NCBI GenBank assembly: GCA_015179025.1
Contig: WHUX01000084.1
Location: 62,001-126,000, forward strand
Length of the DNA: 64,000 nucleotides
DNA from: Terfezia claveryi
Taxonomy: Eukaryota > Ascomycota > Pezizomycetes > Pezizales > Pezizaceae
Direction: 5' to 3'
In this document: positions 1 to 62,023 of the stretch, piece after piece
Layout of the letters: each line of letters starts with the position of its first letter
Numbering within the stretch: the first letter of the stretch is position 1
Notes under the pieces: model-generated
Seen by the model: only the letters and a program-made list of their open reading frames with translations
Databases searched by the model: none
What the model was told of the DNA's origin: nothing
Program-made: the position numbers and the translations under genes

Positions 1-769
1 ATAAAATCTGCCTAAAGACATCTATGGTTCCCTACTGCTGGTACTGTCAGACAGCACTTAATCTCCACCGCTCCTTCATCCCCTAACTGTTCCTTCAATA
101 CAGGAAAACTCTCCCCGATTCTGAATTGTATAAATTCATACAACAACCTCAAGTAATCTGCGGCCAAATCTGCCGGTTTTTTTCCCGCCGGGATCGCCTT
201 GATTGTTGTTTGGAGCTGAGCGAGGTTTGTAGATTTGCTCTCCGGATACCCTTTCAGCCCCTTTCTTTTGAGCCGTTGGAGAAGTTCCGCCGGGGTGGAG
301 TAATCGCCTTCGTTCAGTAGGAGCTTAAACCACTCGAGACGCTTGCTGGCCGGTGTTGCTGGTACGTTACCCCATTTGATACCCTTACTGCTATATCTTA
401 AAACCGAGGGAACTTTGTCGGAGGATTGATTCTATAAAGTTTAACGTTGGAAGAGGTAACGTGGGGGGAAGGTAATGAACCTGATCAGGCCAATCTTGAT
501 TATGATGTGTTTTATCACTGGCTAAATTATGCTGTGATTGTGACGGACAAATTAGTGGTCAGTCAAGAATATGAAAACGGGATTTATAGATAGGGGCCTC
601 ATACCCAAGCTACACCAGAGAATGTAGTCCCAAAGTCAATTCCAATGATAAGTGTGTTTTGCTGGGGCTTTTTTGCTGGGGCTGCTGTAGCATTGTTTCC
701 TGCTGGTCCAGCATTATTGCTTGCTCGCAGCTTGTATGCTGCGGGTTTACGCTTACTCTTCTTTGGCAT
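1..769 (-). CDS. Hsp70-family (HSPA12-like) ATPase, 5' part, three exons, runs off the window
   Basis: Reading the minus strand, an ATG at 769 opens a lysine/alanine-rich leader followed by IIGIDFGTTFSGVAW, the phosphate-1 motif of the Hsp70/actin ATPase fold. Proposed exons are 605..769, 481..531 and 1..431. The first intron (532..604) is GTATGA...CACAG with a CTGAC branch site. The second (432..480) is GTTCAT...TATAG, and both preserve phase 0. Exon 3 reads DKVPSVLRYSSKGIKWGN, then LEWFKLLL, and later IKCCLTVPAV, the order seen in fungal HSPA12-like proteins (usually VLTVPAVW). The leading TAG near base 12 is probably in a third intron starting around GTAGGG, but it could be a lesion. The protein would be a cytosolic ATP-binding Hsp70 relative; its client is unknown. 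It diverges from the gene at 1233. The family call is from motif recognition only. Confidence 0.75.
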
Positions 770-5392: not shown

Positions 5393-5400
5393 AAGATATA

Positions 5401-12313: not shown

Positions 12314-12533
12314 ATGTTAGAATGAATGTAGTACATTCCGTTCATTCCGCCCATGCCTTGCTACCTATACCATATGTAGCCGTCAGCGGCTTGCACATCA
12401 TATTGCGTACTTCACACCTTGCTCGCACTCATATCGTTGCTTCATGCCTAGCTATACGGCTTGCAATGGACATGTGCTACTCCTTCTCATTCTTCTTCAT
12501 ACTTTAGATGTACGCTCATACATACATGAATCT
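12314..12533 (+). repeat. Diverged, truncated copia LTR
   Basis: The sequence starts TGTTAGAATGAATG and then tracks the copia LTR at 49592 (TACATTC...TTCATTCCGC, CATGCCTTGCTA, and the later TCCTTCTTCTTCA-like and TACGTTCAT blocks) with many differences. It is cut off by hAT copy B at 12534. No internal copia sequence accompanies it, so it is a truncated or solo LTR. Confidence 0.65.
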
Positions 12534-15411
12534 CAGTGTTCTCAACCGGCCCGGCCGCCGACCAGGCCGCCTGAAGCCTGGCCTGGGGGCCGAGGTCTGT
12601 GCGGGCCTGAAACCGCCTGGGGCGGCCCCGGCCTGACCTCAGAAGGCCGTAGTCCAGGCTATTCAGGCTATTCAGGCTATTCAGGCCGCGGTCCAGGCTA
12701 TTCAGGCCGTGGTCCAGGCTATTCAAGCGGCAGTCCAGGCTATTCAGGGCTGTTGCTTAAGGGTGGTTAGCATAAAACTGTAGCCATGTCCGTTGCTCTC
12801 AAGTCAATCCGCTTGAAGGCAACGGTTGTATTACTTATCGTGGTAAGTACCTATATTATTTCCGCAATAAAAAAAAGACTAATCTATGTACAGGATTATG
12901 GATAATTTCAACAGTTCATCTATGGATATGTCGGGGATTTTCGATGATGACCAGGAGACTATAAGCAACCTATCGCAATTATCATCTAGTCAATTTACGA
13001 ATTTTGATCCGGAGCCTTCTACTATACCATCAAGTCAACAGTCACCAAGCGCATTTGATTCGGGTGGTGGTGATGATGGTTCAGCAGCAGCAGCAGGTCC
13101 CTCCTCTTTATGGCGCATGCGAAATACCCCCCGACGAAGTTGGATTTGGCAGTACGGAGAAGCAGTTACAATCAATAATAAGCGATTTTGGCAATGTCGC
13201 TTATGTCGACCTGGACAGGCTAAGAGATATGCAGAGGTCAACAAAACATCCAATTCAACATCTTCAAGGACATCGCATGACAGAAAATGGTCCGATGGAG
13301 GTAGCGACAGGACCTAGTATTATTCAACAGGCTTTTGGCAATAGCACACCGAAGATTCAATTCAATTCCGATGTGTTTAAGTAGCTTTTAGTTCAATGGA
13401 TGGTCTTATCTAATATAAGTTTTTGGCAAGTTGAAGAGACTAGTTTTCGTTTATTATTATCTTATCTTACTTCTGTTTCTGCTTCATATACAGCAATTCC
13501 ACATTGTTTACCTCGTTCTGGAAATACTGTTCGCACATGGACAATGCAGATTTATACTTCTCAGAGGCAGTTAATAATTCAAGTATTGAAAGATATTCTA
13601 CTTGTTCATTTTAGTTTTGACTTATGGACATCTAGCAATTATCTTGCATTATTGGGAATAGTCAGACATTGGATTAGTATGGATGGTCAGTCTTGTCGAG
13701 CATTATTAGGTCTTCGTCATTTATATGGAGCACATACAGGTAAAAACCAAAGTCAGATTATTATGTCCTTGTTGCAAGAGTATGCATTAATGAAGAAGGT
13801 TGGATATTTTACTTTAGATAATGCTACAAATAATGACTTTGCATTGACTTGTCTTTCTATATATTTATAGGAGGTTGGGGTTTCTTTTAATGTATCAGAA
13901 CATAGGCTTTGCTGTTTTGGACATATTATTAATCTTGTTGTGAAGACTTTTCTTTATGGAATTGAATCAGATATTGGGATGCAAGAGTTGGATAAGCCTT
14001 TAACCTTTTGGCACAAGCAGAGACCATATGGTAAGTTGCAGAATATTATTACCTACATTTGTTGGACACTACAATGTCAAGAAGAATTTGCACGTCTTGT
14101 TCAAGAAGCTTTACTAGAAGAATCAGCATTTCAGCCAATTGCAGCAAATCTCACTCGATGGAATAGTGACTTCAGAGCTATCAAACGTGCATTACAACTT
14201 CGAAATAGGTTTGAAGTTTTTATAGCTCGGTATATTCGTGATGGCCTTGAGGAAGATCAACTGGATATTGATGACTGGAAGGAGTTGCAGGATATTGTTA
14301 CAATTCTAGAGCCATTTTATCGATGTACTTTGGAATTGGAAGGCCATCATGGTAATGGTGCTCTATACAATTTACTTCCTACAATGGACTATCTGCTAGA
14401 GCATATCGAATCAGCATTAACTATGTATACAGCAAGCAACAGTACTCCACATCTTCTTGTATCGATCAACTTAGCTTGGAGTAAGCTTGATAAGTATTAT
14501 GCTCTTACTGATGCAAATACAGTCCTATACGCTGCAGTTGTTCTTCATCCATCGATGAAACTTGACTATTTTGAGACAAACTGGGCAGAGCATCCGACTT
14601 GGATTGAGAATGCGAAGGCTAAAGTACAGTTATTATGGGAAACTAAGTAAGTATTAGTTTTGCTCTTTATATCATATTTTGTTGTACTAATTATACTTCG
14701 ATAGATATAAAGACACTGGAGAAAGCAAATCATCGGCAGAATCAACTGGTATTAGTGGTCCAAGTACAGACACCACTGAATCCACTTTGTGCTTGTGGAA
14801 ATCTAAGCGGGCACCTAGAATTCGGCAAAAAGATGAACTCGATGACTTCATCTCCTCCACTATTGATATTGAGAACCCTCGACTCTGGTGGATTCAACAC
14901 CAAAAGGATTATCCACAACTATCCAGAATGGCACTTGACATTCTAGAAATTCTGGCTATGAGTTCAGAGGTAGAGCGAGTGTTTAGTAGTACAGGATTGA
15001 TGGTAACAGACCGGCGGAATAGGTTGAAGGAGGATATTATTGAGGCAGTTGAGTGTATGAAGTCATGGCGTATTGATAGTGGAATTATTGCGTTCAAGGA
15101 GGCAGAGCAGGTACAAGCTATGTTAGATCAACTCGAGGCAAAAGGTATTCGTGAGAAAGATACCGATCAGTAGTTAGGTAGCTAGGTAGATATTGGTTTC
15201 TGAATTGAGCTCTCGACTTTTCTACACTGTCGTGCAGAACCGGCTATTCAGGCTATTCAGGCGGCCTGCCTTATTCAGGCCGCCTGGACCGGCCCAGGCC
15301 TTCCTTCAGGCCGGCCTGAATAAGAAGGCCAGGCCCAGCCTGCCTTACTGTGGCCCAGGCCGGCCCCGGCCTTAGCTTCGCCTGGCCTGGCCTGGCCAGC
15401 TGAGAACACTG
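12534..15411 (+). mobile_element. hAT transposon copy B (near full length, inactivated)
   Basis: The termini CAGTGTTCTCAAC at 12534 and GCTGAGAACACTG at 15411 match copy A. GC-rich subterminal arrays with CAGGCTATTCAGG repeats lie at 12540-12760 and 15235-15400. The outside 8-mers (ATGAATCT and AATGGCAG) differ, and the two flanks are different elements (copia LTR on the left, LINE ORF2 on the right). So either a deletion or an ectopic exchange happened at this copy. Confidence 0.88.
12898..15173 (+). pseudogene. hAT transposase, copy B, few lesions
   Basis: A 5' UTR intron (12843..12893, GTAAGT...TACAG with a GACTAAT branch) precedes ATG 12898. The protein runs MDNFNSSSMDMSGIF, a BED zinc finger (WQCRLCRPGQAKRYA), the transposase core (NLTRWNSDFRAIKRALQLR) and an hATC dimerisation domain (AMSSEVERVFSSTGLMVTDR). 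A second intron is 14647..14704 (GTAAGT...GATAG, branch TACTAAT), and the frame is preserved across it. Lesions are a frameshift near 13235 and TAG stops at 13381 and 13868. Both stops replace CAG (Gln in copy A or in the expected sequence). Confidence 0.88.
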
Positions 15412-15726
15412 AATGGCAGTATGTCTTCTCTCACTTTAAGATCTCTCTTTACACATAAGGTCTATCTTCCTCTGGGGTGCGGAATTCTAGTTCCATCCTT
15501 CTTTTCTCTACTAAAATGACACACGCCTTTCTAGGATGGAGCTCCTAGTGTATCAAGCCCTTAGGAAAATTTGTGGGGCATATCACGACAGCTCCAAGGA
15601 CAAGCTAGCACTCATAGCAAATATCGGACCTCTAGAGAACAAGCTACATGACATGGCAGCCTGCTGGGTGTTATTAGTGACCCGAATTGGGAACAAGGCT
15701 CTCCTTTCCCTCCTCTCCATTCCTAC
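15412..15726 (+). pseudogene. LINE ORF2 fragment between RT and RNase H, left of gypsy-1
   Basis: It reads MSSLTLRSLFTH, then in another frame a piece matching IFLWGAEF, then MELLVYQALRKICGAYHDSS. The same region in the LINE piece at 44627-44848 is RTIFMWGAGLRNRPGVAS and MKRLVYQASRRLL. It is interrupted at 15727 by the gypsy LTR and resumes at 24665, with CCTAC duplicated on both sides. Confidence 0.75.
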
Positions 15727-16003
15727 TGTCAGACCGGCCAGAGGCCTGTGACAGATGATGTAGGTGTATAACCGGCCAGAGGCGGTGTTGCAAAGATGCG
15801 TGTGTATGTATATATGTATTGATGATGATCTCTAACTGAGAGCCCCCGAGAGCTTAAGGCTTCCCGGGTCTTGCTAGTGCGCGGCGCGTGCCGCGCTACG
15901 CTATCTACATGCCACGCTATGCTACCGACATCTATCCTAGGCTATCTACATGTCGTGCTATGCTATCTGCTATCTATACATGCTATCTATCTGGCTCCTT
16001 ACA
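15727..16003 (-). repeat. gypsy-1 3' LTR
   Basis: 277 bp starting TGTCAGACCGG and ending CTCCTTACA on the plus strand; apparently identical to 24388..24664. The 29 bases between it and the pol stop contain a purine-rich stretch on the element strand (GGCGGGGATG next to the LTR), the likely polypurine tract. Confidence 0.95.
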
Positions 16004-16032
16004 CATCCCCGCCGTCACACAGGCGGGTGTCC

Positions 16033-19000
16033 TCACCTTGCCTCCAGCCTGGCCATGAACTCGGTCAGGTCTGTGTCGTTTGTTGTCCATTCCGTACGAG
16101 AGAGGGGATCGACGTTGACATGGTCTTTCCCCGGCCGGTAGAACACCTCTATGTTGTCGATGAATGGTGCGAGGAGCATTCGGAATTTATCGATCCATAG
16201 GCTGTATTGTGTGTTCGCTGATGATCGTAAGACTTCTCTTATTGCTGCATGGTCCGCAACTATCATTGTATGAGATCCTTCTAGCAGGTGGCGGAGTTTC
16301 ATGAACGCCCAGGCCACACACGCCAGCTCCCTTTCGGTTGACTCGTAGTCCCTTTCAAAGCTTTTGGTATTCCTAGAGATGTATAGGACTGGGCGCTCTT
16401 TTGTTTGGCCTTCTCGGGGGATTACGATCTCGTATGAGAATGGCAGGTCTGGTGAGGACTTGGTTGATGTCACTGCTGGCATTGAGTCCTTCAAGGTCCA
16501 GCATTCACCGAGATTTGGGACGTTCCCTCGTATCCACGATTCAGCACTCCTTGCTTCCAGTGTACGTGCCGTGGCCGTGTGGTGCCTCAGTCTTTGTCTT
16601 TCTTCGAACTCTGCGACCAGTGCTTCCGTGACGTCATGTTCACCCAGCCATTGGGCCTCTTCCAGAGGGTATCCTATCCATCGTACGTGGTACTTCTTTA
16701 ATCCTCCTTTGGTTGTGCGTTCTCCTATTATCTCGGCTAGGAATACGTTGTCCCCTTCTACCGGAGGGGGTCTAGGATATCCCCTTTGCCAGGGGTCGCT
16801 ATCGGGGTTTCGGGCTTTCTCGACTTGTTGTACTGATACCACTGGATACATCTTCATTTCCGGAGGTAAATCCAGGCGTAAAGCTCTACCCCCGCTGAGC
16901 ACCTCTTTTATCCGATAAGGTGGCAGCTTTTGCTGAGATAGCTTGTTGTGTCTCACTGCTGTTGGGTGACGATCCAGTCTGAGTGACACGAAGTCACCTG
17001 CTTGGAAGTTTGGGATAGGTCCATGTCGACGGTCGTAGTATCTTTTTTGTGTCATTGCAGCGCAGCGTATAGCCTCTTGTGCATCCTTGATTCGGATCTT
17101 GTTTCGTTCCAACCATTCTTCGATGGATTCTTGTTGTGGATTAGTGCCCATGCTGGTTGGTTGTAGTAACCTCTTAATTACATCATGTGGTTGCGCGTAC
17201 AGTAGGCTCATTGGGGCTTCTGCTGTAGATACGTTACGTGTAGTGTTGTAGGCAAGTGCTGCCAGTGGTAGAGATTTCGACCAGTCATCCTGTAGGGGTG
17301 AGGTGTAAGCGCGCAGCATGCCCTCGATGATTTGGTTCAGTCGTTCAGTGGCCCCATCTGTTTGGGCATGGTATGCAGTCGATGCCCTATGGCGAATCCC
17401 CATCGCGGTCATCACGCCTTGCCAAAAGTCTGACAAGAATTTAGCATCCCTATCAGTGATAAATTTTGATGGTAGCCATCCTTGGCAGACGACGTGTTTG
17501 ACAAATAGGTCGGCTGTCGATATGGCTGTATAGTTCGATGTTGTCGGTATAAAGATCCCAAATCGAGTGAACTTGTCAATTACTACCATGATTGCATCGT
17601 AGCCATCTGAAAGTGGGAGGCCTACAATGAAGTCGATACCCACACAGTCGAACGCGCCGAGTGCCATTCCATTACTGGGGATATCGATGGGCATCATGTT
17701 CCCGGGTAGTCTAGCCCGAGAAGTCTTATTTACCATACACTTTGGATATCGTGAGATGTAGTTTTCAACGTAGGCAGCCAAACGTAGTCGGAAGAATTCT
17801 GCTGTGATATGGTCGTAAGTTTTCTTGTAGCCCATGTGGCCCATTAGATCATGAGCGATGTATATCGTTTCTCGGAGAAGTTCTGCAGGTATGCAGATTC
17901 GAGGCCCCCCTGTTGTCTCAAACAGTAGCATTCGATGTTCAATCCAGTATCCAGAGTCTTTCCCCTCATCCGACGAGCTGAGTTTCTTGTAGACATGTTT
18001 GAATATAGGGTCTCGTTTGTACGCTGAATCCCAGTCAAAGTCTTCCATGCTTTCCAGTATCTGATATTCTAGAGACATGTCATCAGCGCTTGTATCATCA
18101 GTTGTTACGTCGTGAGCTGAATCTGGAGGCTTTGCATCCCACGTTGGGAGGTCGGTGTCCTCTTGGGGTCCGGTCTCTTTATTAGACTCATCCACAGGTC
18201 TCACTGTTCCTCTTATCTCCTCTTCCCCTCGTAATTCATTCCTTCTGACAGACTCATCCACAGGTCTCTCGACTCTCTCTGGCTCCTTCTCTTCCTGTGG
18301 TAAGTCCCTCTTTCGTTGGCTTTTTACCCTGTTACTGCGGTGGACATATATCTCTGCACCCTGGGCATTCCCATTCGAGTCCCCTGCAGTTTCAGGTGGT
18401 GACGTCAATCCCATTCCCGAGACCATAAGATTCCAAGCCTTCTTCAGTGTCCTCCAGAGTCCGTTCCCTGTTTCCCCTTTCTCACAATCGCTCCCATTCC
18501 CTTCTTCCTCTTCGTCATAGTCGCTCTCCTCACTCATATCAGAATTACAAGAAATATTTGGGACAAAGGAAATATCACATAGCAAAGAAGTGGCATGTTC
18601 GCCCAGTTCCTCCGTTTCAGTCCTACAACCGCTCTCAGCTGCAACGTAGGTTGTTGCTCCATCAGCCAGGGCAGGAATCAAAGAAATATCAGATACAAAG
18701 GAAATATTGGGGTCTAAAGAAATTTTTGAAACAGAGAGATCCTCGAAAACAGATGTAGCGTCCAATACCATCGACAAACCAGATACCTTGCCTTTTTTAC
18801 CCTCCTTGCTTTCCCCTTGTTCATTTCCCTTCTCCTTTGCGGTGTCCTCCACTTGTCCTACCATATCCTTGTAGCTTCTCATCAGGTGGTCTCCCTCGTC
18901 CCCTTGTGCGTAGTCTTTCCTTCCCCATACTTGTGTGAGGACTGCAGCGAAAGCATCAGCTGATGCATCCGTGTACAAAATGAATGGGCGGTCAAATAGA

Positions 19001-21474
19001 GGGTGGGCTAGGATTGGGGCTGTGCACAGTCGTTTCTTCAGCTCGTCGAATGCGTGTTGACAGCTGGAGTCCCATTGGATTGGTGTTTTTGAGTTGTATG
19101 CAGGTTTTCGATCGTTTTTCGGGGTGGCTTTGTCGGGGTCCTGTCGTCCGCGTTTTAGGTCATTTAGTGGTTTGCTGATTTTTGCGAATTCGTGGATAAA
19201 CGATCGATAATAGCCGAACATGCCCAGGATCCTGTGCAGGGCACCCAGAGTCTTTGGTGGGGAAAGTGCTGCAATCGTCTGTACTTTCTCGCTCAGGGTA
19301 TGAAGGCCATATCGTGACAACTCATGGCCCAGCAGTTTCACATCAGCGAAACCAAATCTGCACTTTTCCAAGGAGAACATAATTCCTGCTTTCCTTGCCG
19401 AGGATAGGATTGTTCTTAGGTGTAGTATATGGTCCTGCCATGTTGTGCTGTATATCAATAGATCGTCGATGTATACCAGAGCAGCCTGCCATCTTAGTCC
19501 TCCAATCACTTCGTCCATCAGCCTTTGGAACTGGGCAGGGGCGTTCTTTAGACCAAAGGGTAGGCGTTTATATTGGTATAGCCCTTTGTGTGATATAAAG
19601 GCTGTCTTGTGGCGGTCGGCTTCTTCCAGTTCGACCTGGTGATATCCCTTGAGTGCGTCTAATAGGGTAAAGAACTTCTTTCCAGCCAAAGTAGAGAAAA
19701 CATAGTCTGATCTCAGCATTGGGTATGCATCTCCTACCGTTATCGAGTTCAGCTGTCTGAAGTCCACGCAGAATCGCCATTTATTGTTTTGCCACACCAT
19801 TACGATCGGGGATGCTGTGGTGGATGTCGATTTCTCAACTACGTCCCACGCAAGCAGTTGCTCAATCGTTTGATCAATTATCTCTCTTTTAGCTGGGCCC
19901 ACAGGTTGTGCGTGTTGTAGTGTGGGTAGGGGACCTTCCGTATTCACTGTTGCTTTGTAACCTTTCACTTTGCTAAGTCGTGCTCCTTTGCTGAAAACAT
20001 CCAGGAAGTCTAGTACCAATCCAAATAATTCCTCCTTTTGCGCGTCTGAAAGGTGTTCCCCCATTTTTACGTCATCTTTCGATACCTTTTCTTTGTTGGT
20101 TTCTGTATCGTCCTTCTCTGGTAGTCCTGTTGGGATTGGGCCGAATAAAGGGAGCTCGTCTTCGAGTTTTGGGTCAGGTAGTTCTCCATATGGGCGAGTT
20201 GTTGCTTTTCCGATTCTCTTCCATAACTCGTCTTCTGTAATAGAGCGTTGGCGTGAATTTTCCTGGCCTTCCGCATTAAACGCCAAAGATTCAGAAGGGG
20301 CCAGCCAGTCACGTTGGGGGCCTGAGGGGTCATTACGGACGATGTCTGCTAGGAAGTTCAGTTCTTGTGTCAAGGTTTGAGTACCGGCTGTTTCGGGTGC
20401 TTGGGAGTCATAGAACGCTGTAGATACGTGTGTTGGGGCTCTGTTCCCATTGTTTTTCCTTCTAGGTCCGGGTCTGACGAGATCGGCCCAGTCCATGGAG
20501 ATTCCTGTTTCAGTCAGCATTGAGAGATCTCCCATTGTTGCTCTTCCGATCACCTGGTTCTTTTTGAGGTGGATTGGTTGTGTACTGCTGTTCTGGAACA
20601 TCAGGAACTTAACGTTGGAATTAGTAACCGCATAGGGTAGAGATAGGGAGGGGAGAATGGCTGCTCCTTGGTTTACGAATTGGTGTGGTGCAAATACGTA
20701 GTCTCTATCTGGGAGCATATGCGATTTGATCGGAATTGCGCGGCAAGTCCGTCCCCCTACTGTCATATCTTCTTTCAATCGTACGAGTACTGAGCGAAAC
20801 TTGCTGTCAGTGTATTCGACGTCATAGGAGAATCCTTCAGCGCATGCCCTTCCCTTGGATATCATTAGGTCAATTCCATAATCCGTCAGAGCGTCAACCC
20901 CCAGCAGTATCCCATAGCTGAAGTCTTCCAGCACGTGGAATTCGGCTTCGATCTCAATCAAGCATCTTTCTTGTGAGTTTATGTCGCCCTGGTAGCCTTC
21001 CAGCCATATGGGGATCGAGCAGAACCCTATGGTCCCAGACCGGCCAATTCCATGGATTTCCACTCGGGTCTCAGCATTGATTATCGTATTTGGATAGTTC
21101 TCGATCAGGGTCTTGTGGTCAATCAAGCTGATGTTCGAGCAGACATCGTTGAGCATCCGTCGGGGACTTTGCGTAGGGTCTCCAATGCGTACTGATGAAG
21201 ATAGTGGTACGGTTTTAAGGTAGTTACGACCGGGTTGGCTGTTCTGTAGAATTCTTCTTCCTTTCATGATCTGGGGAGTATCTGTTTCCACTGTGGGGGG
21301 TTGTGGTACTCTATTGAGTTTGTCGTTTATATTGTTCGTCTCAGTGGTTATCTCTTCCTCTTTCTGTCTCCTTCGTGAGTCTTTACCTTTCCCACCATAT
21401 CGTAGTTCAGTCTTATTCGGAGGGGAATGTGTTGATGGGGGTTTGGCCTCCTCATGGGCAAACCCCCCTAGGCT
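16033..21474 (-). CDS. gypsy-1 Pol: protease, RT, split RNase H, integrase, chromodomain
   Basis: The -1 frame relative to gag is open from the frameshift site to the stop at 16033. Residue numbers count from a GTG at 21291. Protease region: NDVCSNISLID near 48-58 (noncanonical), ILLGVDALTDYGID near 128-141. RT: about 470-700, with YIDD at 607-610. First RNase H strand: ILYTDAS at 771-777 (D775). Acidic low-complexity linker: about 800-1075. Integrase zinc region: 1146-1186, then the DDE core D1220, D1280 and E1316 (35 residues apart). Chromodomain: about 1516-1563 (KKYHVRWIGYP). Then the remainder of RNase H at 1633-1732: VLYISR, ERELACVAWAF (E1653/E1655), ADHAAI (D1680), RPGK and VDPLSR (D1728). 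The first Cys of the HHCC finger is Tyr here (RYPKC). Confidence 0.93.
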   Translation of the reverse strand, partial: SLGGFAHEEAKPPSTHSPPNKTELRYGGKGKDSRRRQKEEEITTETNNINDKLNRVPQPPTVETDTPQIMKGRRILQNSQPGRNYLKTVPLSSSVRIGDPTQSPRRMLNDVCSNISLIDHKTLIENYPNTIINAETRVEIHGIGRSGTIGFCSIPIWLEGYQGDINSQERCLIEIEAEFHVLEDFSYGILLGVDALTDYGIDLMISKGRACAEGFSYDVEYTDSKFRSVLVRLKEDMTVGGRTCRAIPIKSHMLPDRDYVFAPHQFVNQGAAILPSLSLPYAVTNSNVKFLMFQNSSTQPIHLKKNQVIGRATMGDLSMLTETGISMDWADLVRPGPRRKNNGNRAPTHVSTAFYDSQAPETAGTQTLTQELNFLADIVRNDPSGPQRDWLAPSESLAFNAEGQENSRQRSITEDELWKRIGKATTRPYGELPDPKLEDELPLFGPIPTGLPEKDDTETNKEKVSKDDVKMGEHLSDAQKEELFGLVLDFLDVFSKGARLSKVKGYKATVNTEGPLPTLQHAQPVGPAKREIIDQTIEQLLAWDVVEKSTSTTASPIVMVWQNNKWRFCVDFRQLNSITVGDAYPMLRSDYVFSTLAGKKFFTLLDALKGYHQVELEEADRHKTAFISHKGLYQYKRLPFGLKNAPAQFQRLMDEVIGGLRWQAALVYIDDLLIYSTTWQDHILHLRTILSSARKAGIMFSLEKCRFGFADVKLLGHELSRYGLHTLSEKVQTIAALSPPKTLGALHRILGMFGYYRSFIHEFAKISKPLNDLKRGRQDPDKATPKNDRKPAYNSKTPIQWDSSCQHAFDELKKRLCTAPILAHPLFDRPFILYTDASADAFAAVLTQVWGRKDYAQGDEGDHLMRSYKDMVGQVEDTAKEKGNEQGESKEGKKGKVSGLSMVLDATSVFEDLSVSKISLDPNISFVSDISLIPALADGATTYVAAESGCRTETEELGEHATSLLCDISFVPNISCNSDMSEESDYDEEEEGNGSDCEKGETGNGLWRTLKKAWNLMVSGMGLTSPPETAGDSNGNAQGAEIYVHRSNRVKSQRKRDLPQEEKEPERVERPVDESVRRNELRGEEEIRGTVRPVDESNKETGPQEDTDLPTWDAKPPDSAHDVTTDDTSADDMSLEYQILESMEDFDWDSAYKRDPIFKHVYKKLSSSDEGKDSGYWIEHRMLLFETTGGPRICIPAELLRETIYIAHDLMGHMGYKKTYDHITAEFFRLRLAAYVENYISRYPKCMVNKTSRARLPGNMMPIDIPSNGMALGAFDCVGIDFIVGLPLSDGYDAIMVVIDKFTRFGIFIPTTSNYTAISTADLFVKHVVCQGWLPSKFITDRDAKFLSDFWQGVMTAMGIRHRASTAYHAQTDGATERLNQIIEGMLRAYTSPLQDDWSKSLPLAALAYNTTRNVSTAEAPMSLLYAQPHDVIKRLLQPTSMGTNPQQESIEEWLERNKIRIKDAQEAIRCAAMTQKRYYDRRHGPIPNFQAGDFVSLRLDRHPTAVRHNKLSQQKLPPYRIKEVLSGGRALRLDLPPEMKMYPVVSVQQVEKARNPDSDPWQRGYPRPPPVEGDNVFLAEIIGERTTKGGLKKYHVRWIGYPLEEAQWLGEHDVTEALVAEFEERQRLRHHTATARTLEARSAESWIRGNVPNLGECWTLKDSMPAVTSTKSSPDLPFSYEIVIPREGQTKERPVLYISRNTKSFERDYESTERELACVAWAFMKLRHLLEGSHTMIVADHAAIREVLRSSANTQYSLWIDKFRMLLAPFIDNIEVFYRPGKDHVNVDPLSRTEWTTNDTDLTEFMARLEAR

Positions 21475-24386
21475 TTTCCCGATCCGACTTCGGCTTCAAC
21501 TTCGTTAATATAACTGTGTGGGGTAGTTGAGGCATCGTCGGAGTCTGAGTCAGATTCCAGAGTTTCAATCCATACTGTATGGACAGCAGCCCTTGTACCG
21601 CACTCGAACCCAAAGTGCCATTGGTCTCTTTTCCCGAGCTTCTCGCAGAACTCGCAGGGTCGTTCAATGAATTTTACAGTTCCATCCGACCTCAGGAACG
21701 ATCGAGTCCTCTTGTTCGTTGCAGGGTTTAGTCGGTCGGCTATGGTCTTCATTCGTACTTCGTTTCTCTTCGTATATTCTACGGTTCTATCCCTCGCTTT
21801 TGCTCCTTCTTGTGTCGTTACGGGCAATAGTAGTCTGGCTTTTGGCATGGGTTGCAGAGGCACTGGCCCAGGATTGGACTGGTATTTCGAGTAGGGTGTC
21901 GAGGAACTTGTCTGGTAGGGGGGTCTTGAAGGGTACGTTGGCTTCTTTGGAGGGTGTAGTTTGAGATGATCGTCATACAAGCGTATCTCTGAGGCAAATC
22001 GTGACAAGGATTCCTGTTCACGGATGTAACGATCAGCTTGTGCATCGTTAAACTTTGCTCGAATTCTTGCGATGTGGGTAGCTTCTTTCGATTCTGGGAA
22101 TGCCATGGCTAGCATTCGTAGTTTTTGGAAGTAGTAGATCAGGAAGGTCTCTTCCGGTAACTTATGTCTGTCTTCTGCTTCCCTCTGAGTCACAGAGATT
22201 GACTTAGACCATGCCTCCCTCATCTTCACTTGGAAATTAAACCAGCATCCTGCTTCCTTCGTCATGTTCGCGTGATTGCGGCCACCCAGCATTGAGTACC
22301 AGATCCGAACTGGGTCCTTTTGAGGGAAGCAGTTGAATGCAATCTGTGGACATACGAGGGTTTCTCCGTGAGTATCTATGATTTGCTCCATCTCCATTAG
22401 CCATAATTCTAGATCATCGTCATGCTTGAACTTAGGCATCGTGTTTGGGTCAAAACGGGGAGTTTTTCTCCATTCTTTGTCAAGGTCCTGATTCCTGACT
22501 ACCATCTCCCTGTTGGCTGGGGGTGTTTCGAATAGGGTGGTCCAGGTTCCGTTATCGATGGCTTTCAGTTCTTCATCGTATAACTTCTTTTTGGCCTCGA
22601 TTTCCTTTTTCCGAGCGTTCATATTGGCCGTTTTGGTATTGTCTGCGGTGGCAGCTACTGCATCAATCTTCTGGTGGAGTGGTCTCAGCATCTCTTCCAG
22701 TATCTTTTTGAAGTCCTCTTGTGACATTCTGAATCCAAAGATAGTTCCTGAGTTCCGTTCGGGTGTCGTGTCAGTGTTATCGGGTTTGTTAGGTCCCCGG
22801 TGGTAGTGCTTGAGGGGCGGTTCCACGATCGGGTTGAAACAGTTGTGATTGAGTGATGTGGAGAGGAATGGGGGTCTGTAGTGTTCTGGAGAGCGGTAGA
22901 AGGTAGGGAGGAGGGGTTGGGGAGGCGTTTCAATCCACTTGAAGGCTGACCTGGGTGGGATGGGGCTGTGGGGTCTCTGGGTTGGCCCTGTTGGCCCTAT
23001 TGGGAAGGTGCGGATATCCGACTTCTTGTTAGCGTTGCAGTGGTCTTGGGTGCTAGTGCCATCAATGATTTCCCTTATTGTTCCGGTGAGTGTTCTCTCG
23101 TTGACTCTGTTTTGCTGTTCCCCAAGGGTATCCGGCGATGCTGAGGCTGCTGTTTTTGGTGGACCTGTACCAACTGTTTCTCTCGATACTTCTGGTGGTC
23201 TGGATTTGTCCATTCCTCCGTTTAGAGGTACGTTGAGGGGAGGGGTGGGTTCCAGTATATCTACCACTGTATGCGATGGGGCGGCCATGTCTACCGTCGA
23301 GAGGGGTGTCTCGATATCGCCAAACCTCGGGCAAGGTTGTGCTAGACAATTTACTCTCCGAGGGCTTCTGGGGGGTGAGTGTGGTCCCGGTAGTTGTCCC
23401 GTGGGATCTGATTCTTCTTGTTCATTCATTGTCGTTGGTTCCCTCCCAACGTTTTCGAATCCCGTTTGGCTCAACCAGTTGATGGCGCCGGAGGCTGCCT
23501 TTGTTATTCCGCCGACCGTGGAGAAAGCCCCGGTGACAACGGAGCCTGCCATTCGTCTGACTATCTTCTTCGGCTTGTTCTTGTGCAACAATATCGATGT
23601 CTCCATGGCTTCAGGTGGTTGGCAGTCAGTGTTGACCTGGAGGGTGGTCCTCGAAGGTGCCCAAGTGGGGTCCGGGGAGCATGTCGTTGTGGAGGTTCCC
23701 TCTTCCGAGTGAACGATGGGGGGGCTGGCCCTGCCCCCAGCGGTGACGAAGTTGTCATGCACTTGTAGGCATTCGACTTCTGCGTCGTGGTTCTGATCCC
23801 GTTGACAGATCCGCCTCCTTGTTTCTCCGTCTCTCTTGTTCACCGTGTGGCTGCCTGTTACTCCAGCTCTGCCTTCTGCACTTTGTGGGCTTTCTACGGT
23901 TTGGACAGGTTCGGGTGATACGTTGGTGGCAGTGTCCCGTGTTGGCTGGCGTGTTGGCTGGTGCTCTGTCTCCGCGCTTTGAGTTTGGGGGCGTGAGTCG
24001 GTGGTAGCTGTCAGCAATTTCTTTGTACGTTTTGGTGGTTTCGGAGTCAGCTCTCCCGGGGGAGATCTTTTGTTGTGTCCCAGCCATGTATCGTTCATAG
24101 CCTCAAATTCTCTGATGTCCTTTGGTGAGGGTATCGGTGGTCCCGCACCAGATCTTGTGCTTCGTTCTGGGTGAAGCATGGCTGCTTTTTCGATGTCCAG
24201 CATAGCGTCTAGGACTGTTGCCACTTTTTGGAATAGGTGTATCTCTATGGCTGAACGCTGAGTCTTCGGCTTTATGTAGTTGTAGAGCAGGGCAGCTGAA
24301 CGCCTGAGTTTCAGGCTGGGTGCGGGGAGGGGCTTTGCCTTTCGCTTAGGCGAGCTCGGGTCCTTCGATCCTGTGCTTGACGCCAT
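21468..24386 (-). CDS. gypsy-1 Gag, 972 aa
   Basis: The ATG at 24386 lies one base inside the 5' LTR boundary. The N-terminus (SLKLRRSAALLYNYIKPKTQ) is clearly homologous to Gag of gypsy-2. A long Pro/Thr/Ser-rich central region is followed by a capsid-like helical part (FNFQVKMREAWSKSISVTQR). Near the C-terminus, residues 911-929 form CEFC...H...C with spacing CX2CX9HX4C, a longer version of the retroviral zinc knuckle that is conserved in gypsy-2. The frame ends at TAG 21468-21470, just after the putative frameshift site. Gag forms the virus-like particle that packages the element RNA. Confidence 0.9.
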   Translation of the reverse strand: MASSTGSKDPSSPKRKAKPLPAPSLKLRRSAALLYNYIKPKTQRSAIEIHLFQKVATVLDAMLDIEKAAMLHPERSTRSGAGPPIPSPKDIREFEAMNDTWLGHNKRSPPGELTPKPPKRTKKLLTATTDSRPQTQSAETEHQPTRQPTRDTATNVSPEPVQTVESPQSAEGRAGVTGSHTVNKRDGETRRRICQRDQNHDAEVECLQVHDNFVTAGGRASPPIVHSEEGTSTTTCSPDPTWAPSRTTLQVNTDCQPPEAMETSILLHKNKPKKIVRRMAGSVVTGAFSTVGGITKAASGAINWLSQTGFENVGREPTTMNEQEESDPTGQLPGPHSPPRSPRRVNCLAQPCPRFGDIETPLSTVDMAAPSHTVVDILEPTPPLNVPLNGGMDKSRPPEVSRETVGTGPPKTAASASPDTLGEQQNRVNERTLTGTIREIIDGTSTQDHCNANKKSDIRTFPIGPTGPTQRPHSPIPPRSAFKWIETPPQPLLPTFYRSPEHYRPPFLSTSLNHNCFNPIVEPPLKHYHRGPNKPDNTDTTPERNSGTIFGFRMSQEDFKKILEEMLRPLHQKIDAVAATADNTKTANMNARKKEIEAKKKLYDEELKAIDNGTWTTLFETPPANREMVVRNQDLDKEWRKTPRFDPNTMPKFKHDDDLELWLMEMEQIIDTHGETLVCPQIAFNCFPQKDPVRIWYSMLGGRNHANMTKEAGCWFNFQVKMREAWSKSISVTQREAEDRHKLPEETFLIYYFQKLRMLAMAFPESKEATHIARIRAKFNDAQADRYIREQESLSRFASEIRLYDDHLKLHPPKKPTYPSRPPYQTSSSTPYSKYQSNPGPVPLQPMPKARLLLPVTTQEGAKARDRTVEYTKRNEVRMKTIADRLNPATNKRTRSFLRSDGTVKFIERPCEFCEKLGKRDQWHFGFECGTRAAVHTVWIETLESDSDSDDASTTPHSYINEVEAEVGSGKA
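21474..21480 (-). promoter_or_regulatory. Putative -1 ribosomal frameshift heptamer GGGAAAA between gag and pol
   Basis: In the gag frame the sequence is G GGA AAA, followed by GCC TAG. It fits the X XXY YYZ slippery pattern and moves ribosomes into the pol frame exactly as needed. The gag stop is the second codon after the site. In gypsy-2 the equivalent is A GGA AAA, so only the second position can re-pair fully. Confidence 0.6.
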
Positions 24387-24388
24387 AT
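24376..24388 (-). promoter_or_regulatory. gypsy-1 primer-binding site overlapping the gag start codon
   Basis: Reading the element strand, the 5' LTR ends ...CTGACA and continues T-ATGGCGTCAAG. TGGCGTCAAG would be the primer-binding site (TGG pairs with a tRNA CCA end), sharing bases with the gag ATG. gypsy-2 has the same ten bases at the same offset. The tRNA is not identified. Confidence 0.5.
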
Positions 24389-24664
24389 GTCAGACCGGCC
24401 AGAGGCCTGTGACAGATGATGTAGGTGTATAACCGGCCAGAGGCGGTGTTGCAAAGATGCGTGTGTATGTATATATGTATTGATGATGATCTCTAACTGA
24501 GAGCCCCCGAGAGCTTAAGGCTTCCCGGGTCTTGCTAGTGCGCGGCGCGTGCCGCGCTACGCTATCTACATGCCACGCTATGCTACCGACATCTATCCTA
24601 GGCTATCTACATGTCGTGCTATGCTATCTGCTATCTATACATGCTATCTATCTGGCTCCTTACA
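24388..24664 (-). repeat. gypsy-1 5' LTR
   Basis: 277 bp, apparently identical to 15727..16003. It is followed by the CCTAC target duplication at 24665-24669. Transcription of the element must start in this LTR; I cannot place a TATA box with confidence. Confidence 0.95.
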
Positions 24665-51543: not shown

Positions 51544-54500
51544 TCAGTTGTCTGCATCGGTATGGTTGGTGGACCATTGGGCCCGGGACAGTGGGTCGAC
51601 ATTAGTCATTTCCTTCCCTGGTCGGTAGACAACCCGCAGTTTATCGATGAAGGGAGCAAGCAGCATTCGAAATTTGTCTAGTCGGATACTGTATTGTGTA
51701 GAGGCTGAGCTGCGGAGCACCTCTCTGATGGCGGGGTGATCTGTCACCAGTACCTACCGTGTCGGATCCTTCAAGTAAGTGTCTCAACTTTGTAAATGCC
51801 CACACCACACATGCTAGCTCTCTTTCAGTCGACTCGTAATATCGTTCAAAATCTTTCGTGTTGCGCGAGATATATAGTACTGGTCGTTCCACGTTCTTGC
51901 CTGGTCTGGGGATTCGGATCTCATACTTGAAGGGTGCGTCGTCACCGGAGTGGATGGCATCTTCGCCTCCGTTCGTTATGGCCAGGCACTCAGTTAGTAC
52001 TGATGCACCGACCAGGGCTTCAATGCAGTTCACTGTCACCCGTTCCTTACGCTTTTTCTCCTTTTCTTCATAATCTCTTACCAGGATGTCCGCCACATCA
52101 TCTCTTCGCACCCACTGGTCTTCATCCGACGGATAGCCCACCCAGTGGATGCGGTATCTAATGTCCCCCCCTCTCGTAAAACGGTGCCCGATAATTTCCG
52201 CCTGGAATAGGCCTTCAGCCTCATCAACTGCAGGGGGTCGTGGATATTCACGGTTCCAGACATCCATTTGGGGTTCTGCAGCCTTCTCGATCTGTTGGAC
52301 AGATACTACGTTGTGTATCTTGATATTGTCGGGGAGGTCCAGTTCGACTGCTCGGCCCCCGCTGAGTATGCGTTTAATCTGGCAGGGTTGTAGCTTTTGT
52401 TGTGATAACTTGTTCAATCGGATATTGGTGCTGGGGTGTTTGTCGAGCCTTAAGGAGACATAGTCGCCCTTCTTGTAGGAGGGTAGAGGCCCATGTCTGG
52501 CGTCGTAGTATTTTTTCTGCATTTGGGATGCGAAACGCATTGACTCCTTTGCATCTTCAAGTTTGTTCTGGGCAATTTCAAGCTATTCCTCTACCGATTC
52601 CTTTTGTGAGTTTCCCGTATTGATCGCCTTCGGCTGTATCAGTCTCTGCATCATGTCCTGGGGTTGTATGTAGAGTAGTTGTATAGGGGAGTAATCTGTA
52701 GAACTACTTCGTGCCGTATTGTAGGCGAGCTGGATTAGTGGCAAGTGGTCACACCAGTCATCCTGCATTGGGGATGTGTATGCCCGCAGCATAACTTCCA
52801 GTGTCTGATTTAGACGTTCGGTAGCTCTGTCAGTTTGTGCGTGGTAGGCTGTGGATGGTGCGTGTTTGATGTCCAGTGCTTGCATCAGCGCTTTCCAGAA
52901 CTCTGACAGGAATTTGGCATCTCGGTCGGTAATAAATTTTGATGGCAGCCATCCCAGTGACACCACATGAGTGAGGAATAGGGTTGCAGTAGATTCTGCA
53001 GTGTAGTCAGACGTTGTAGGAATGAAGATGCCGTAGCATGAAAACTTGTCAATCACGACCATGATTGCATCGAAACCTCGAGATTTGGGCAGTTGTACAA
53101 TGAAGTCGATCCCCACGCATTGGAACGCTGACAGTAAACCTTTCGGTCCTGGTACCTCGATTGGCATCATATTCCCAAGTAGTTTCGATCTCGAAGTCTT
53201 GTTCATGGTGCATTTGGGGCAACTTTTTACATATCTCTCCACTGTAGTGGCCAGCCGAGGACGGTAGAAGTTGGCTGTTATACGGGTATAAGTCTTTCTA
53301 TAGCCCATGTGACCAAGGGAATCATGTGCTATGTGAAGAGCTTCTCTCAGCAGTGATTCGGGGATGCACGTTCTCAAGCCCGTCCTTGTCTCATAGGTCA
53401 AGCTTCCATCCTCTTGAATAGCGAATCCATCCGAAGGTTCGCCAGTTGAAGATATTCTATTGTAAGTTGTCCGAAATATTGGGTCTTTGCGGTAAGCGTC
53501 ACTCCAGTTGAAGTCTCCTCCTTCCTCTAATAATTCATATATCAGACTGCCTTCATCCTTATCCTCCTGTGACCCTTCGCTACTGTCTGCCCTGCCAGCT
53601 ACATCCACCACTGCCTTTGATCCTTTCTGCCCTTCTTCATTGGCTACATCCGACGCTGCCTGCGATTCCTTCCTAATCGTATCCAGTCCTTCATTGGCTA
53701 CATCCGACACACCTGCGATTCCTTCCCGATTATATCCAGTCCTTCATTGGCTACATCCAACACCGCCTGCGATGTTCCCTTCTCATCATTGTGGTCCTTT
53801 GATCTTCCCAGAAAAGCCCAAACCTTACCCATCAGTCCTCTCCATATCCCGATCTTTCCTTCAGTTTCAATCTCTTCCAGCCATTCTTTCTCTCCTGATA
53901 TTGCAAGTGTTGTGGTTCCATCCATAATGTAGTCCGAACGCTCCCATGTCTGGCACAGCACTACTGTAAAGGCTTCTGCTGAGGCGTCCGTGTACAATGT
54001 GAAAGGTCGGTCGAAGCGAGGGTGGGCGAGAATAGGGGCTGAGCAGAGCCGTTGTTTGAGTTCTTCGAATGCATCATTGCATTCTTTTGACCACTGGATG
54101 GTCTGTTTTGAGTTGTATGTGGGTCTTCTGTGGTTTGGGTCGGTTTCCTTTGGTTTTGATCTCTTCAACTCATTCAATGGTCTGGAAATCATAGCGTACT
54201 GATGAATGAAGCTTCGATAGTATCCGAACATCCCCAGTATCCTGTGTAATCCACCAAGTGTAGAGGGTGGAGCCAGTGAGGTTATTGTTGTTACTTTTTC
54301 TGTCAGTGTGTGTAGTCCATATCGTGATAGCCCATGCCCTAGTAATTTAATGTCAATATAGCCAAAACGGCATTTTTCCAGTGAGAACACTAAGCCGGCG
54401 TTCTCTGCAGCTCTGCATATTGTTCTCAGGTGAGACATGTGTTCTGACCATGAGTTGCTATATATTAGCAGATCATCGATATATACCAATGCGGCTTGCC

Positions 54501-56744
54501 AGCGCAGCCCGCCAATTATTTGATCCATCATTCTTTGAAATTGGGCTGGTGCGCTTTTCAGGCCGAATGGCAGACGTTTGTATTGATATAGTCCTTTATG
54601 GCATATGAATGCTGTCTTTTCCCTATCACCTTTTTGTAGTTCCATCTGGTGATAGCCCTTCAACGCGTCGAGTAAGGTAAAGAACCTTTTACCTGCAAGC
54701 GTAGAGAATACATAGTCAGACCTAAGCATTGGGTATGCATCTCCTACTGTAATGGTATTCAGCTGTCGAAGTCGACGCAGAATCGCCACCTGTTATTCTG
54801 CCACACTAATACGACCGGAGAGGCTGTCTTCGACGAGGAAGGCTCTATCACGTCCCATGCAAGTAGTTGTTCGATTGTCTTATCTATTACCTCTCACTTG
54901 GCGGGACCAGTGGGGCGTGGTTGTTGTGGGGCAGGTAGCGGTCCTTCAGTTGTGACTGAGGCCGTGAAGTCCTTTATTTTTCCAAGACGATCTCCTTTGC
55001 CAAAGACCTTTATATGTTCCAGAATCACGTTAAACAGTTCGTCTTTTTGAGCATCTGTGAGGTTGCTGCCCATTTTTACATCTTCCCTATGGATTATCTC
55101 AGGTGCGTCTGATGGTTTTCCTCCCAGGACAGGACCGAAGGGTAGGCTCTCCTCTTCCAGTTCAGCATTTCCCAGTTCACCTATAATCCTCGGTTTTGCG
55201 GACGCCAGTTTTTTCCACAGTTTGTCCTCTGTAATGGATCTCGCCTTTGGTATTTCCCTGCCATCTGCCGAGAATGTCATGCTTTCTGAGGGAACATTAA
55301 TTTCTTTCTCGGTATATAGTACATTGTTGGCTAAGTAGTTTAGTTCTTCCTCTAGCGAAGGGTGGTCGCTTGTTTTTGTTGTGTAGAAGGCTCTAGATAC
55401 CATTCCTGGGGCTTTGGTCCCGAATTGCTTTCTTCGTGGGCCGGGTTGCACCAGGTCGCACCAGTCAATCTCTGTTCCAGCTGGACCAATTGCTGTCAGT
55501 TCAGTGGTTGCCCGTCTGATGATTTGTCCTTTCTTCAGGTGTATTGGTGTGTCAGATACATTCTGAAACATCATCCCCACTGTATTCCGGTTAATTATCG
55601 AGTAAGGTAGAGATAGGGATGGGATAATCGGCTTCCCTTGTTGAAGGAAAAAGTTTGGTTCGAACAGGTAGTCAGTATTGGGTAGTATGTGAGAAGTGAT
55701 AGGGATACATTTGCAGGTTCGCCCAAAGATCGATACGTTTTCTCTGACCCGAATGAATACTGAGCGGAACTTTGTATTGATTGAGGAGACAGGGTATGAG
55801 AACTCTCCCCCAGACATTGTAGCTATCCCTTTGGTAACAAGGAGATCTACTCCATAGTCCACCAAGGTATCGAGACCCAGTAGCAGTTGGTGGCTGAATT
55901 TCTCCACTAGATGTACTTCAACAAGAATCTGTATAAGGCACTTTTCGGACCCTTTTGTACCTTCCATCCAGACTGGGATTCTGCAGTGCCCAACACTTGA
56001 GGAGACCCCAATACCATGGATATTCAATACATGTGAAGTATCAATTGGTACGTTGGGATAGTTTTTCCGAAAGGTGTCTACATCGATCAGTGATACATTA
56101 GAGCATACGTCATTTAAGATGTCGATTGCATTGGAATGTGGAGAGCCAATGTGTCCTCGAGATGATAGAGGGGATGTCTTTAAGTAGTTTCTCCTGGGTT
56201 TTGTGAGTTCTTTCGAGCGAACGGCGGAGAAGATCTTTTGTTTGCTGTCGTTCGTTTCATTCGTAGTTGTAGGGTCGCGCTCTTCATGTTCCCCATTGAT
56301 TGGTATTTGCCCATTTATCTCATTGGCTGTGCTGCTAAGATGATCGATTGTCTCAGTCTCTATAAAGAGATCACACTTGTCATCCTGATCTAGCTTGCAC
56401 GTATTGCCTATCTTGCCATTTAGATGATCGATCGTCCCAGTCCCTCGTGAGGGATCACACTTGTCATCATTTCTGGTATTTGGATTCAGAACGTTCGGCC
56501 CAACTCCCAACAGGGAGCCACACTTGTCATTATCCTTTCCTTTTGAGGTATCATCCTTCTGCTTCCCTTCCTCCGACGAGTCACTCCAATCGTACTCTGT
56601 GTCCGAGTCAGAGTTGGTGTAGGGGCAGTTTTCTTCTCCTCGTTTGGATGTTTTCCCTTTTGCGCCATGGTGTAAGACTGACTTTGGTTGAGGAGGTATT
56701 ATCAATGGGGGTTTACTGTCCTCTGTCGTAGACCCCCTTAGGCT
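51544..56744 (-). pseudogene. gypsy-2 Pol with split RNase H, multiple lesions
   Basis: Order on the minus strand: protease region (NDVCSNVSLID, QLLLGLDTLVDYG), RT (YIDD in LVYIDDLLIYS), first RNase H strand (FTLYTDASAEAF), acidic linker with repeats of VANEGLDxIxKES, integrase (CPKCTMNKTS, DFIVQLPKSRG, TDRDAKF, ATERLNQ), chromodomain (IRYRIHWVGYP), then the RNase H remainder (PVLYISRNTKDFERYYES, TDHPAIREVL, NVDPLSR). Lesions: TGA at 54894-54896 (Arg in gypsy-1), one base lost near 54777, a frameshift near 53700 inside the linker repeats, TAG at 52583-52585 (Trp in gypsy-1), and a 4-bp GGTA duplication near 51755. Confidence 0.92.
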
Positions 56745-58565
56745 TTTCCTGGATTGGGAAAAGCTGGGTTAAGGAATACGTGGCTGGTAGGGGAGGTAGT
56801 GTGGTCTGATGTCCACACGCCTGGGAGTGGCCAGATATCTTCAATAATGTTGTCATCAGTATCTGATGAGGTAGTTTCCAATAGCAATGTTGTGACGGAG
56901 CTTTTGTTTGGGCACTCAAAGCTGAAGTGCCATTGATCCTTTCTGCCTATCTTTTCACAGAACTCGCAGAGTCGTTCTATATACTTCACAGTACCATCAT
57001 TGCAGAGGAAGGATCTGGTCTTTTTGTTTGTTGCCAGATTGAGGCGTTCTTCGACACTTTTTGCCCTTGCATCCATTCTTTTTTTGTATGCTTCTACTCT
57101 TTCGGTTCTTGATGCGGGGTTCGGCTCTTTCCAGCCAATTGATTTCCTTTGTATCGAATTATTTGTAGGGGGGGTTGAGGTTCAGTTAGTTGAGGAGGAC
57201 GGTTGTTGTGTGAGCCTGTGGGGTTGAAGTAAGAAGGATTATATGGGGGTTGGTGGCGACGATAGTTGAGTGGATGCAATTTTAGGTGTTCATCATACTC
57301 TCGGCATTCCTCGCCGAAAGCAGTGATGCTGTGGCGTTCTCGGATGTAGCGGTCAGCCTGTGCATCATTGAATTTAGCTCTGATTCTGGAGATGTGTGTG
57401 TTTGTTAGCAGCTTAAGTTTGGAGAAGAAGAATTGATGAAATGATTCATTGGAGAGTTTGGATCTGTCTTCAGCTTCACGCTGTGCCACTGCAAGAGGTT
57501 TAGCCCAGATGTCTCTCATCTTCTGCATGAAATTTGTCCAACATCCTTCTTCCTTTGTCATAAATGCCTGCTCGCGGCCTCCAAGTAGCGAATACCACAT
57601 TCTCACTGATGTGTTGGGCGAGAAGCAGTGTCTCCATATCAGAGGGCAGACTAGTTCTTCACCAAAACAGTCAACCTCGATCTGCATCTCCGAAATCCAC
57701 TGTTCGAGGTCGTCTTCAGCCTTGAACTTTGGCATCAGGGCTGGGTCAAATCTAGCGGTCCTCTTGTATTGTTGAGTCCCATCTGGTTTGATACCTGATA
57801 TCGTCAGCTTCTGGTCATGAATCTTGAAGGGGGCTTTCCATGTTTTTTCAGCTATTGCTTTGAGTTCGTCCTCAATGGTTTTCTTTCTTGCTTCCAGTTC
57901 TGTTTGACGTGTTGTAGCCTGAGTGTCCAGAATGTGAGTTCTGTCCATTGTCAGTTCCTCGACTTGCTTCTTTAGTGCTTCGTTGCTTTGTTGTAGTGGT
58001 GCTATTGCTGTTGTCTGAGGGAGTATGCCGCGTGGGCTCCCAGGAGTTCGTCATTGACTTGGGGGTAATCTTCGACTTCGGGTGTTCTGGGTTCCATCCT
58101 CAAGGTTGTTGGAGGTATTTGCGTGTCTTCATTCGGGGTGTGCCTGGGAGGGGTCTTCTCGAATGTTGGTGTGTCTGCGGCGGGAGAGCAGGTGCGAGAG
58201 CGGTCTTTCCTGGGTTGGAGTTCTTCCAAAGGTGCCTTCCGTTTTATCCCGTTCAGAAAGGCGGATCTCATGCTTGTGAAGTCTTTGATCTCCTTTGGTG
58301 TTGGAGTTAGCGGTCTGGACCGGTTTCTGCTTGTTCTCGTGATGAGCATCGAGGCTTTTTCGTTGTCTGACATCAGGTCCAGAATGGATACAACTTCTGT
58401 GAATAGGATGTGTTCCGAGGGGGATCGAAAAGTTTTTGGTTTTAGGTATAAGTAGATGGTGCTGGCGAGCCTCTTCAAGGGGGCGCCGGGTTTGGTGGAG
58501 AGTTTCGTCTCTTTGAATGCCGACCGTTGGGCTTGAGGAGGGTTTGAATCGTTCCTTGACGCCAT
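56738..58565 (-). pseudogene. gypsy-2 Gag, frameshifted
   Basis: ATG 58565 (MASRNDSNPPQAQ) lies one base after the LTR, as in gypsy-1. Conserved parts are LASTIYLYLKPKTFRSPSEH, DLEQWISEMQIEVDCFGEEL and the CEFC...H...C knuckle (CX2CX9HX4C) near 56925-56980. Frameshifts near 58030 and 57080 split it. It ends at TAA 56738-56740, after AGGAAAAGCC, the counterpart of the gypsy-1 slippery site. Confidence 0.88.
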
Positions 58566-58566
58566 G

Positions 58567-58870
58567 TGTGAGGTCACGAATCCCGTGGACAAAACCTGTG
58601 GACGAAGCCAGGGGGAGGACGAAGCCTAGAGCATGTGTGTGCGTATATGTATTGATGATGATGATGATGATGATCCCTCCTCCCGGGAGGCTTAAGGCTC
58701 TCCCGAGATGCGCTAAACTCTAAACCTTACTTCTTCACGGGCGCCCTAGCGGCGTCCGTTCTAGCTATGCTCGGGTGACTATCTATGCAATAACAAAAGC
58801 AGGTGACTATCTATGTAACGACAACAATCTATGTATGGTAAAGCAGTATGTGTTCTATCTAGTCCTGACA
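58567..58870 (-). repeat. gypsy-2 5' LTR
   Basis: 304 bp, followed on the right by the CAAGC duplication and the continuing copia array. Confidence 0.94.
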
Positions 58871-61873: not shown

Positions 61874-62023
61874 AAACAATCAAATTCAACACTCTTTTCC
61901 CTATACATATTTTTTTTCCCATATCCATGGTTTTTTATAGGTTTTTTAATGAGGTTGACTTGATTGCGTACATTTAGGAAGATAGGAGGGGCTTGAGTCT
62001 AGCAAGTATGAGCTGAGGAGGGG

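Follow-up and report, generated by a model that had tools for sequence, protein, structure and literature searches.

The 64,000-nucleotide stretch of the Terfezia claveryi genome analyzed here (positions 62,001 to 126,000 of contig WHUX01000084.1; hereafter the window) contains a long terminal repeat (LTR) retrotransposon of the Ty3/gypsy type, element A, whose Pol polyprotein carries its RNase H in two separate halves, one after the reverse transcriptase (RT) and the other behind the integrase and chromodomain. The whole element (15727..24664; 8938 bp) lies on the minus strand, as do all of its features given below, and was delimited by LTR pairing and a target duplication. The 5' LTR (24388..24664; TGTAA...TGACA) and the 3' LTR (15727..16003) are 277 bases each and identical over their entire length, and the 5-bp duplication GTAGG borders the element on either side (24665-24669 and 15722-15726); paired LTRs with a short target duplication are typical of Ty3/gypsy elements, and this copy was recently inserted. 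In the host genome the LTR gave 10 matches, three of them full-length at 100% (rounded), two being element A's own, and the family is thus low-copy but recent.

The Gag open reading frame (ORF; 972 residues, 21468..24386) begins with an ATG separated from the 5' LTR by a single base (24386-24388), so that a primer-binding site would have to extend into gag codons, unless another route of priming is used. The Pol ORF was called from a GTG (16033..21291; 1752 residues), which is merely where the ORF caller began; the frame, -1 relative to Gag, is open back to a candidate slip site, the heptamer G-GGA-AAA (GGGAAAA; 21474..21480), located just 5' of the gag stop, and Gag and Pol are probably joined through a -1 frameshift at this site into the Pol frame. 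An initial annotation, made from the letters alone, had placed the Pol stop and the LTR within 30 bases of each other; measured from the stop codon (16033-16035) to the 3' LTR, which starts at 16003, the distance is 29 bases.

Comparison with Pfam gave the domain order RT, first half of RNase H, integrase zinc-binding domain, integrase core, a sub-threshold SH3 match, chromodomain and second half of RNase H, which upholds the initial annotation of a Ty3/gypsy Pol with a split RNase H and its remainder past the chromodomain. The RT core, of Ty3 type and upstream of the integrase as in other Ty3/gypsy elements, spans Pol residues 496-665 (19297..19806; Pfam RT, PF00078, at 503-658, and a profile built from collected matches). 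It is followed by the RNase H N half (β1-β2, with D775; residues 740-790; 18922..19074; Pfam and profile), a long acidic linker to the integrase (residues 791-1085; 18037..18921; 67 Asp/Glu and 32 Lys/Arg in 295 residues), the integrase zinc-binding domain and catalytic core (residues 1131-1320; 17332..17901; Pfam and profile), the chromodomain (residues 1514-1568; 16588..16752; PF00385 and profile) and the RNase H C half (β3 onward, with E1655, D1680 and D1728; residues 1626-1734; 16090..16416; Pfam, profile and Ty3 alignment). The integrase H2C2 domain (PF17921) matched residues 1134-1190 with 37.6 bits (cut-off 25.5) and the chromodomain residues 1520-1565 with 26.0 bits (cut-off 25.1), the latter following the integrase as in chromoviruses. 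The rve match (PF00665; residues 1220-1308) reached 22.4 bits, under the curated cut-off of 32.6, and the integrase core scored 139 bits with the profile built from the collected matches.

The two Pfam RNase H models each reported two stretches on the window Pol. The best stretch of RT_RNaseH_2 covered residues 740-790 (profile positions 1-51 of 100) and that of RT_RNaseH residues 1627-1699 (25-98 of 105), and the profile check proposed in the initial annotation thereby returned an N-half and a C-half match. The contiguous RNase H usual between RT and integrase in Ty3/gypsy elements was not found in the window Pol, and residues 1633-1732 did not prove to be anything other than RNase H. Nor was a second, complete RNase H found beside the first, as in Tat and Archon elements; by Pfam and profiles, the window Pol holds one N half and one C half. 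D775 had been placed correctly after RT, but as part of a single strand, where the N part comprises two (β1 and β2, ...LYTDASADAFAAVLTQVW). Judged by eye, RNase H is interrupted at the turn that links its second strand to its third: the canonical protein P0084 has AAGLYQ-NGPDGKEHPVLFISR at the junction, where the window Pol has AAVLTQVW... plus ...PREGQTKERPVLYISR, and no core RNase H residues were seen to be lost at the break in the window Pol.

The catalytic residues were compared to those of Ty3. E1655, D1680 and D1728 align with E401, D426 and D469, respectively, and the other acids are thus found in the C part as originally proposed; D775 corresponds to D358 by position only. The Ty3 numbering offset assumes that D426 is the Asp of the TDH motif, upon which D469 lands on the correct Asp (PMC5371799). 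According to the accessible part of the same study, the Ty3 variants D358N, E401Q and D426N have no RNase H activity and D469N has lowered activity (PMC5371799).

Relatives were collected by two RT-region protein searches, from which the best 120 of 384 and the best 120 of 2089 matches were used. With the window Pol included, this gave 202 distinct Pol proteins, 120 of which have the split order among the matches listed; as the ranking followed the similarity of each RT to that of two split queries, this proportion is no natural frequency. Rather than the single odd element described initially, element A is therefore one member of a conserved group with 119 further distinct proteins in the same order. 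The first search and the window Pol (n=121) comprised 64 split and 32 canonical proteins, 17 without a C half and 8 with multiple RTs, while the second, started from the divergent split member P0085, added 81 new proteins (56 split, 22 without a C half, 3 multi-RT). In all 39 proteins that lack a C half, the sequence stops ahead of the integrase core or at most 271 residues past it, which leaves too little room for an entire C half. With the C half as query, a search returned one protein, P0001, which shares 68% identity over 72% of the query and has the same split. Split members with names are from Tilletia indica, T. controversa, T. laevis, T. walkeri and Pseudozyma flocculosa; several split members gave no chromodomain match in the profile search. 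The linker between N half and integrase has a median of 71 residues in split members (117 of 120 measured) and, by reading, resembles the linker after the C half in canonical sisters. No intermediate with a canonical RNase H and a second C half was seen among the 191 single-RT proteins, the 11 multi-RT proteins being set aside; one of the latter, P0199, has the split order and a broken RT. Two of the 32 canonical proteins, P0115 and P0116, encode the integrase ahead of RT and a contiguous RNase H, an order which we take to resemble the Gmr1 type.

All four catalytic acids of Ty3-type RNase H, represented by D775, E1655, D1680 and D1728, are near invariant across the 120 split proteins among the matches listed. 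The D775 column holds Asp in 119 of 119 split proteins and in all 17 proteins without a C half from the first RT search, again among the matches listed. Mean identity over the split set was 0.575 and 0.532 for the two RNase H halves and 0.500 for the integrase core, so that neither half is less conserved than the integrase core. Since many relatives retain this unusual arrangement, it is probably functional and does not reflect a defective copy.

Phylogenetic trees were constructed on RT only, blind to RNase H, and rooted at the midpoint, with no reference chromovirus set within either tree. In a tree of 114 rows, the split group (82 rows, including 17 proteins without a C half) was supported by a Shimodaira-Hasegawa-like approximate likelihood ratio test (SH-aLRT) value of 99. 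In a second tree of 90 rows, which included host-genome elements, omitted the 39 proteins lacking a C half as well as the 11 with multiple RTs and had near-copies thinned, the split members formed one group (support 100/97), and the RNase H order changed state once, in 100% of 200 bootstrap trees. Joined to them at 97/95 is the nearest group, whose RNase H is of the ordinary kind and which includes the host elements C334, C345 and C723. The terms clade, sister and one origin all presuppose a root outside the split group; given such a root, the trees imply that the split arose once, without reversal in the sample. Movement of the C half to the end and movement of the integrase into RNase H are indistinguishable, as both yield the same order.

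Both orders occur in the host assembly (72.6 Mb, 794 contigs), with counts that are lower bounds and some rows that are partial RTs. Split copies include at least elements A and B, C52 (degraded), C523, which falls in the other split clade and not in that of the window, and C426 (degraded, outside the trees); canonical copies include at least C334, C124, C780, C723 and C345. A further locus, L009 (G000:C175:58001-67156), matches element A at 99.3% identity across 5765 bases (element positions 541-6305), where the match ends. C792 is partial and C175 broken off, and neither displays the position of the C half.

Element B, a degraded relative with the same order that is absent from the initial annotation, lies on the minus strand of the window (51556..58592, the upper end being taken from a reading of gag-like ORFs). 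It retains protease (55428-56237), RT (54292-54980), the RNase H N half (53938-54099), integrase (52502-53539), a chromodomain part (52070-52486) and the RNase H C half (51556-51940, in two frames). Silent sites between elements A and B are saturated, with a proportion of synonymous differences (pS) of 0.76-0.92, which prevents computation of the rate ratio dN/dS. The proportion of nonsynonymous differences (pN) was 0.13 for RT, 0.19 for the N half, 0.22 for the integrase core and 0.21 for the first 68 codons of the C half. Beside element B, the ORF at 58775-61873 reads like what is presumably a copia-type Pol, to which a very long array of short repeats (SSKLTSELTSEQ and ASLPASNQ) is fused.

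Two divergent split members, P0020 and P0073, were modeled with AlphaFold; the models contain both RNase H halves at good confidence and predict a joint fold. Both follow Ty3 RT in their alignment, from the RT part onward into RNase H, the last acid being of low confidence in P0020 and missing in P0073. The best solved matches of P0020 by sequence were Ty3 Gag-Pol 7q5b and 4ol8, which were among the best by fold as well. The initial annotation held that a working active site would need the two parts to assemble within or between Pol chains, which fits both the near-invariant acids and these predicted structures.

From the conservation pattern and the models, we consider it very likely that these elements encode a functional, discontinuous RNase H into whose β2-β3 hairpin the integrase-chromodomain module is inserted. 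The first RNase H β-hairpin, with the first catalytic Asp, would be made directly after RT, followed by the linker, the integrase and often a chromodomain, and the remaining RNase H, with the catalytic Glu, Asp and Asp, would be made at the extreme end of Pol. In three dimensions, integrase and chromodomain would form a giant loop in the β2-β3 turn, with the halves folding together at the place of RNase H in Ty3 RT and with RT, RNase H and integrase staying in one assembly. RNase H activity would then need RT and the integrase-bearing part in one complex, be it uncleaved Pol or RT and integrase fragments joined through the RNase H fold. It is possible, though we propose this tentatively, that RT-integrase assembly acts as a gate on the degradation of RNA in reverse transcription, with a natural split enzyme acting as an assembly check that is active only when both parts are bound, within a chain or between cleaved chains.

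Several observations weigh against a functional, discontinuous RNase H. The predicted template modeling scores (pTM) of the two AlphaFold models are 0.46 and 0.47, in P0020 the last acid (D989) falls within a block whose predicted local distance difference test (pLDDT) value is 61, and P0073 stops short of the last acid, the alignment column holding no P0073 residue. P0073 superposes on 4ol8_B with a root-mean-square deviation (rmsd) of 14.8, showing that its domains are placed differently. The best alignments produced by Foldseek itself span about 300 columns, approximately RT plus the N half, many longer ones have an rmsd near 20 or more, and some P0073 rows span RT only (7kse, 7ksf; model 1..358). 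Furthermore, P0083 lacks a recognized N half, P0041 and P0089 show the integrase core as fragments only, many copies are degraded, and an overlapping later piece of the C half of element B, past the frame break, has a pN of 0.33.

If the RNase H is functional, its halves could also meet between chains, either after the protease has cut the N half from the integrase or by pairing of whole Pols, with the C half completing the RNase H of another chain. In Ty3, as far as the accessible text describes, the acting RNase H sits on the second subunit of an asymmetric RT homodimer (PMC5371799), and this intersubunit precedent, with polymerase and RNase H activities on two subunits, makes assembly in trans credible. 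A protease is plausible in the other split clade, where the first match ahead of RT is DTGA or DTGS in 80 of the 98 proteins with a match to the motif expression (41 further proteins gave none; P0055, P0024, P0085 and P0121 depart from the pattern). In the clade of the window, however, the protease motif is altered to D[TVPI]CSN, DLYSN or DPDSN, with DTG in 0 of 17 readable rows among 18 examined and DVCSN in the window Pol itself (residues 44-58; about 21118-21162), a replacement which may mean less Pol processing. As the single-chain models moreover align both halves along one Ty3 RT chain, we regard assembly between chains as somewhat doubtful.

A vestigial N half, with the C half forming RNase H alone around a new first strand from the preceding stretch, would agree with a strand-like stretch (FSYEIVIPREGQ in the window) seen by reading ahead of the C half in some members, but this stretch varies widely among the 13 members compared, without a shared acid being seen, and the Asp of the D775 column shows no exception, rendering this very improbable. 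Loss of activity, with a host RNase H or another element substituting, has a parallel in retroviral connection domains, described in the accessible text of PMC5371799 as resembling Ty3 RNase H without the catalytic residues; with all four acids near invariant in the split proteins, we find it very improbable here. Several copies in the host genome are broken, and introns and gene models of the database proteins were taken as deposited, both of which could favor an assembly, gene-model or nested-insertion artefact. The same order nevertheless recurs in 119 other protein records from several sources, the window Pol is one open frame and the host genome holds both orders, leaving this explanation a negligible probability. 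An extra RNase H copy and chance were likewise rejected as explanations.

Other repeats lie close to element A. A broken inverted repeat at 8648-15411 has arms of about 3 kb that are 87-96% complementary in pieces, and ORFs on its right arm read like fragments of what we assume to be a hAT-type transposase. The ORFs at 24793-25682 and 27622-28296 read like what is presumably the RNase H end of a non-LTR retrotransposon.

RT and RNase H of LTR retroelements are usually treated as one block, and a survey of fungal LTR elements describes, in its accessible part, their joint transmission (PMC3248453). The split group departs from this, and still keeps an integrase-interrupted RNase H after divergence to silent-site saturation. 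No earlier description of such an element was found in the open PMC literature (Repbase and most subscription journals being outside reach). The split elements offer a natural test of the extent to which RT and integrase need to remain associated in reverse transcription; for Ty3, cDNA production is reported to be rescued by a CA-RT-IN construct and not by CA-IN (accessible part of PMC5371799). Annotation pipelines that expect a whole RNase H beside RT may call split elements defective.

When compared to known systems, the element of the window shares with fungal chromoviruses an integrase followed by a chromodomain match. Fungal chromovirus Pol ends near the chromodomain, whereas here the RNase H C half lies beyond it. 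The transposases of the P element and of hAT elements also carry a module inserted in an RNase H-like catalytic domain; these are, however, unrelated enzymes, and both the inserted module and its site differ. The words "split RNase H" occur in PMC7776569. With Ty3 of yeast (PDB 4ol8, 7q5b) the split elements have RT, the catalytic acids, the integrase and, by prediction, the RNase H fold in common, but Ty3 RNase H is contiguous and directly follows RT, while theirs is interrupted by integrase and chromodomain. The plant Tat and oomycete Archon elements likewise have an RNase H-related change in a Ty3/gypsy Pol, in their case an additional RNase H (aRNH) located beside the original, as given in the accessible part of PMC5348765, in contrast to the one RNase H in two pieces of the split elements.
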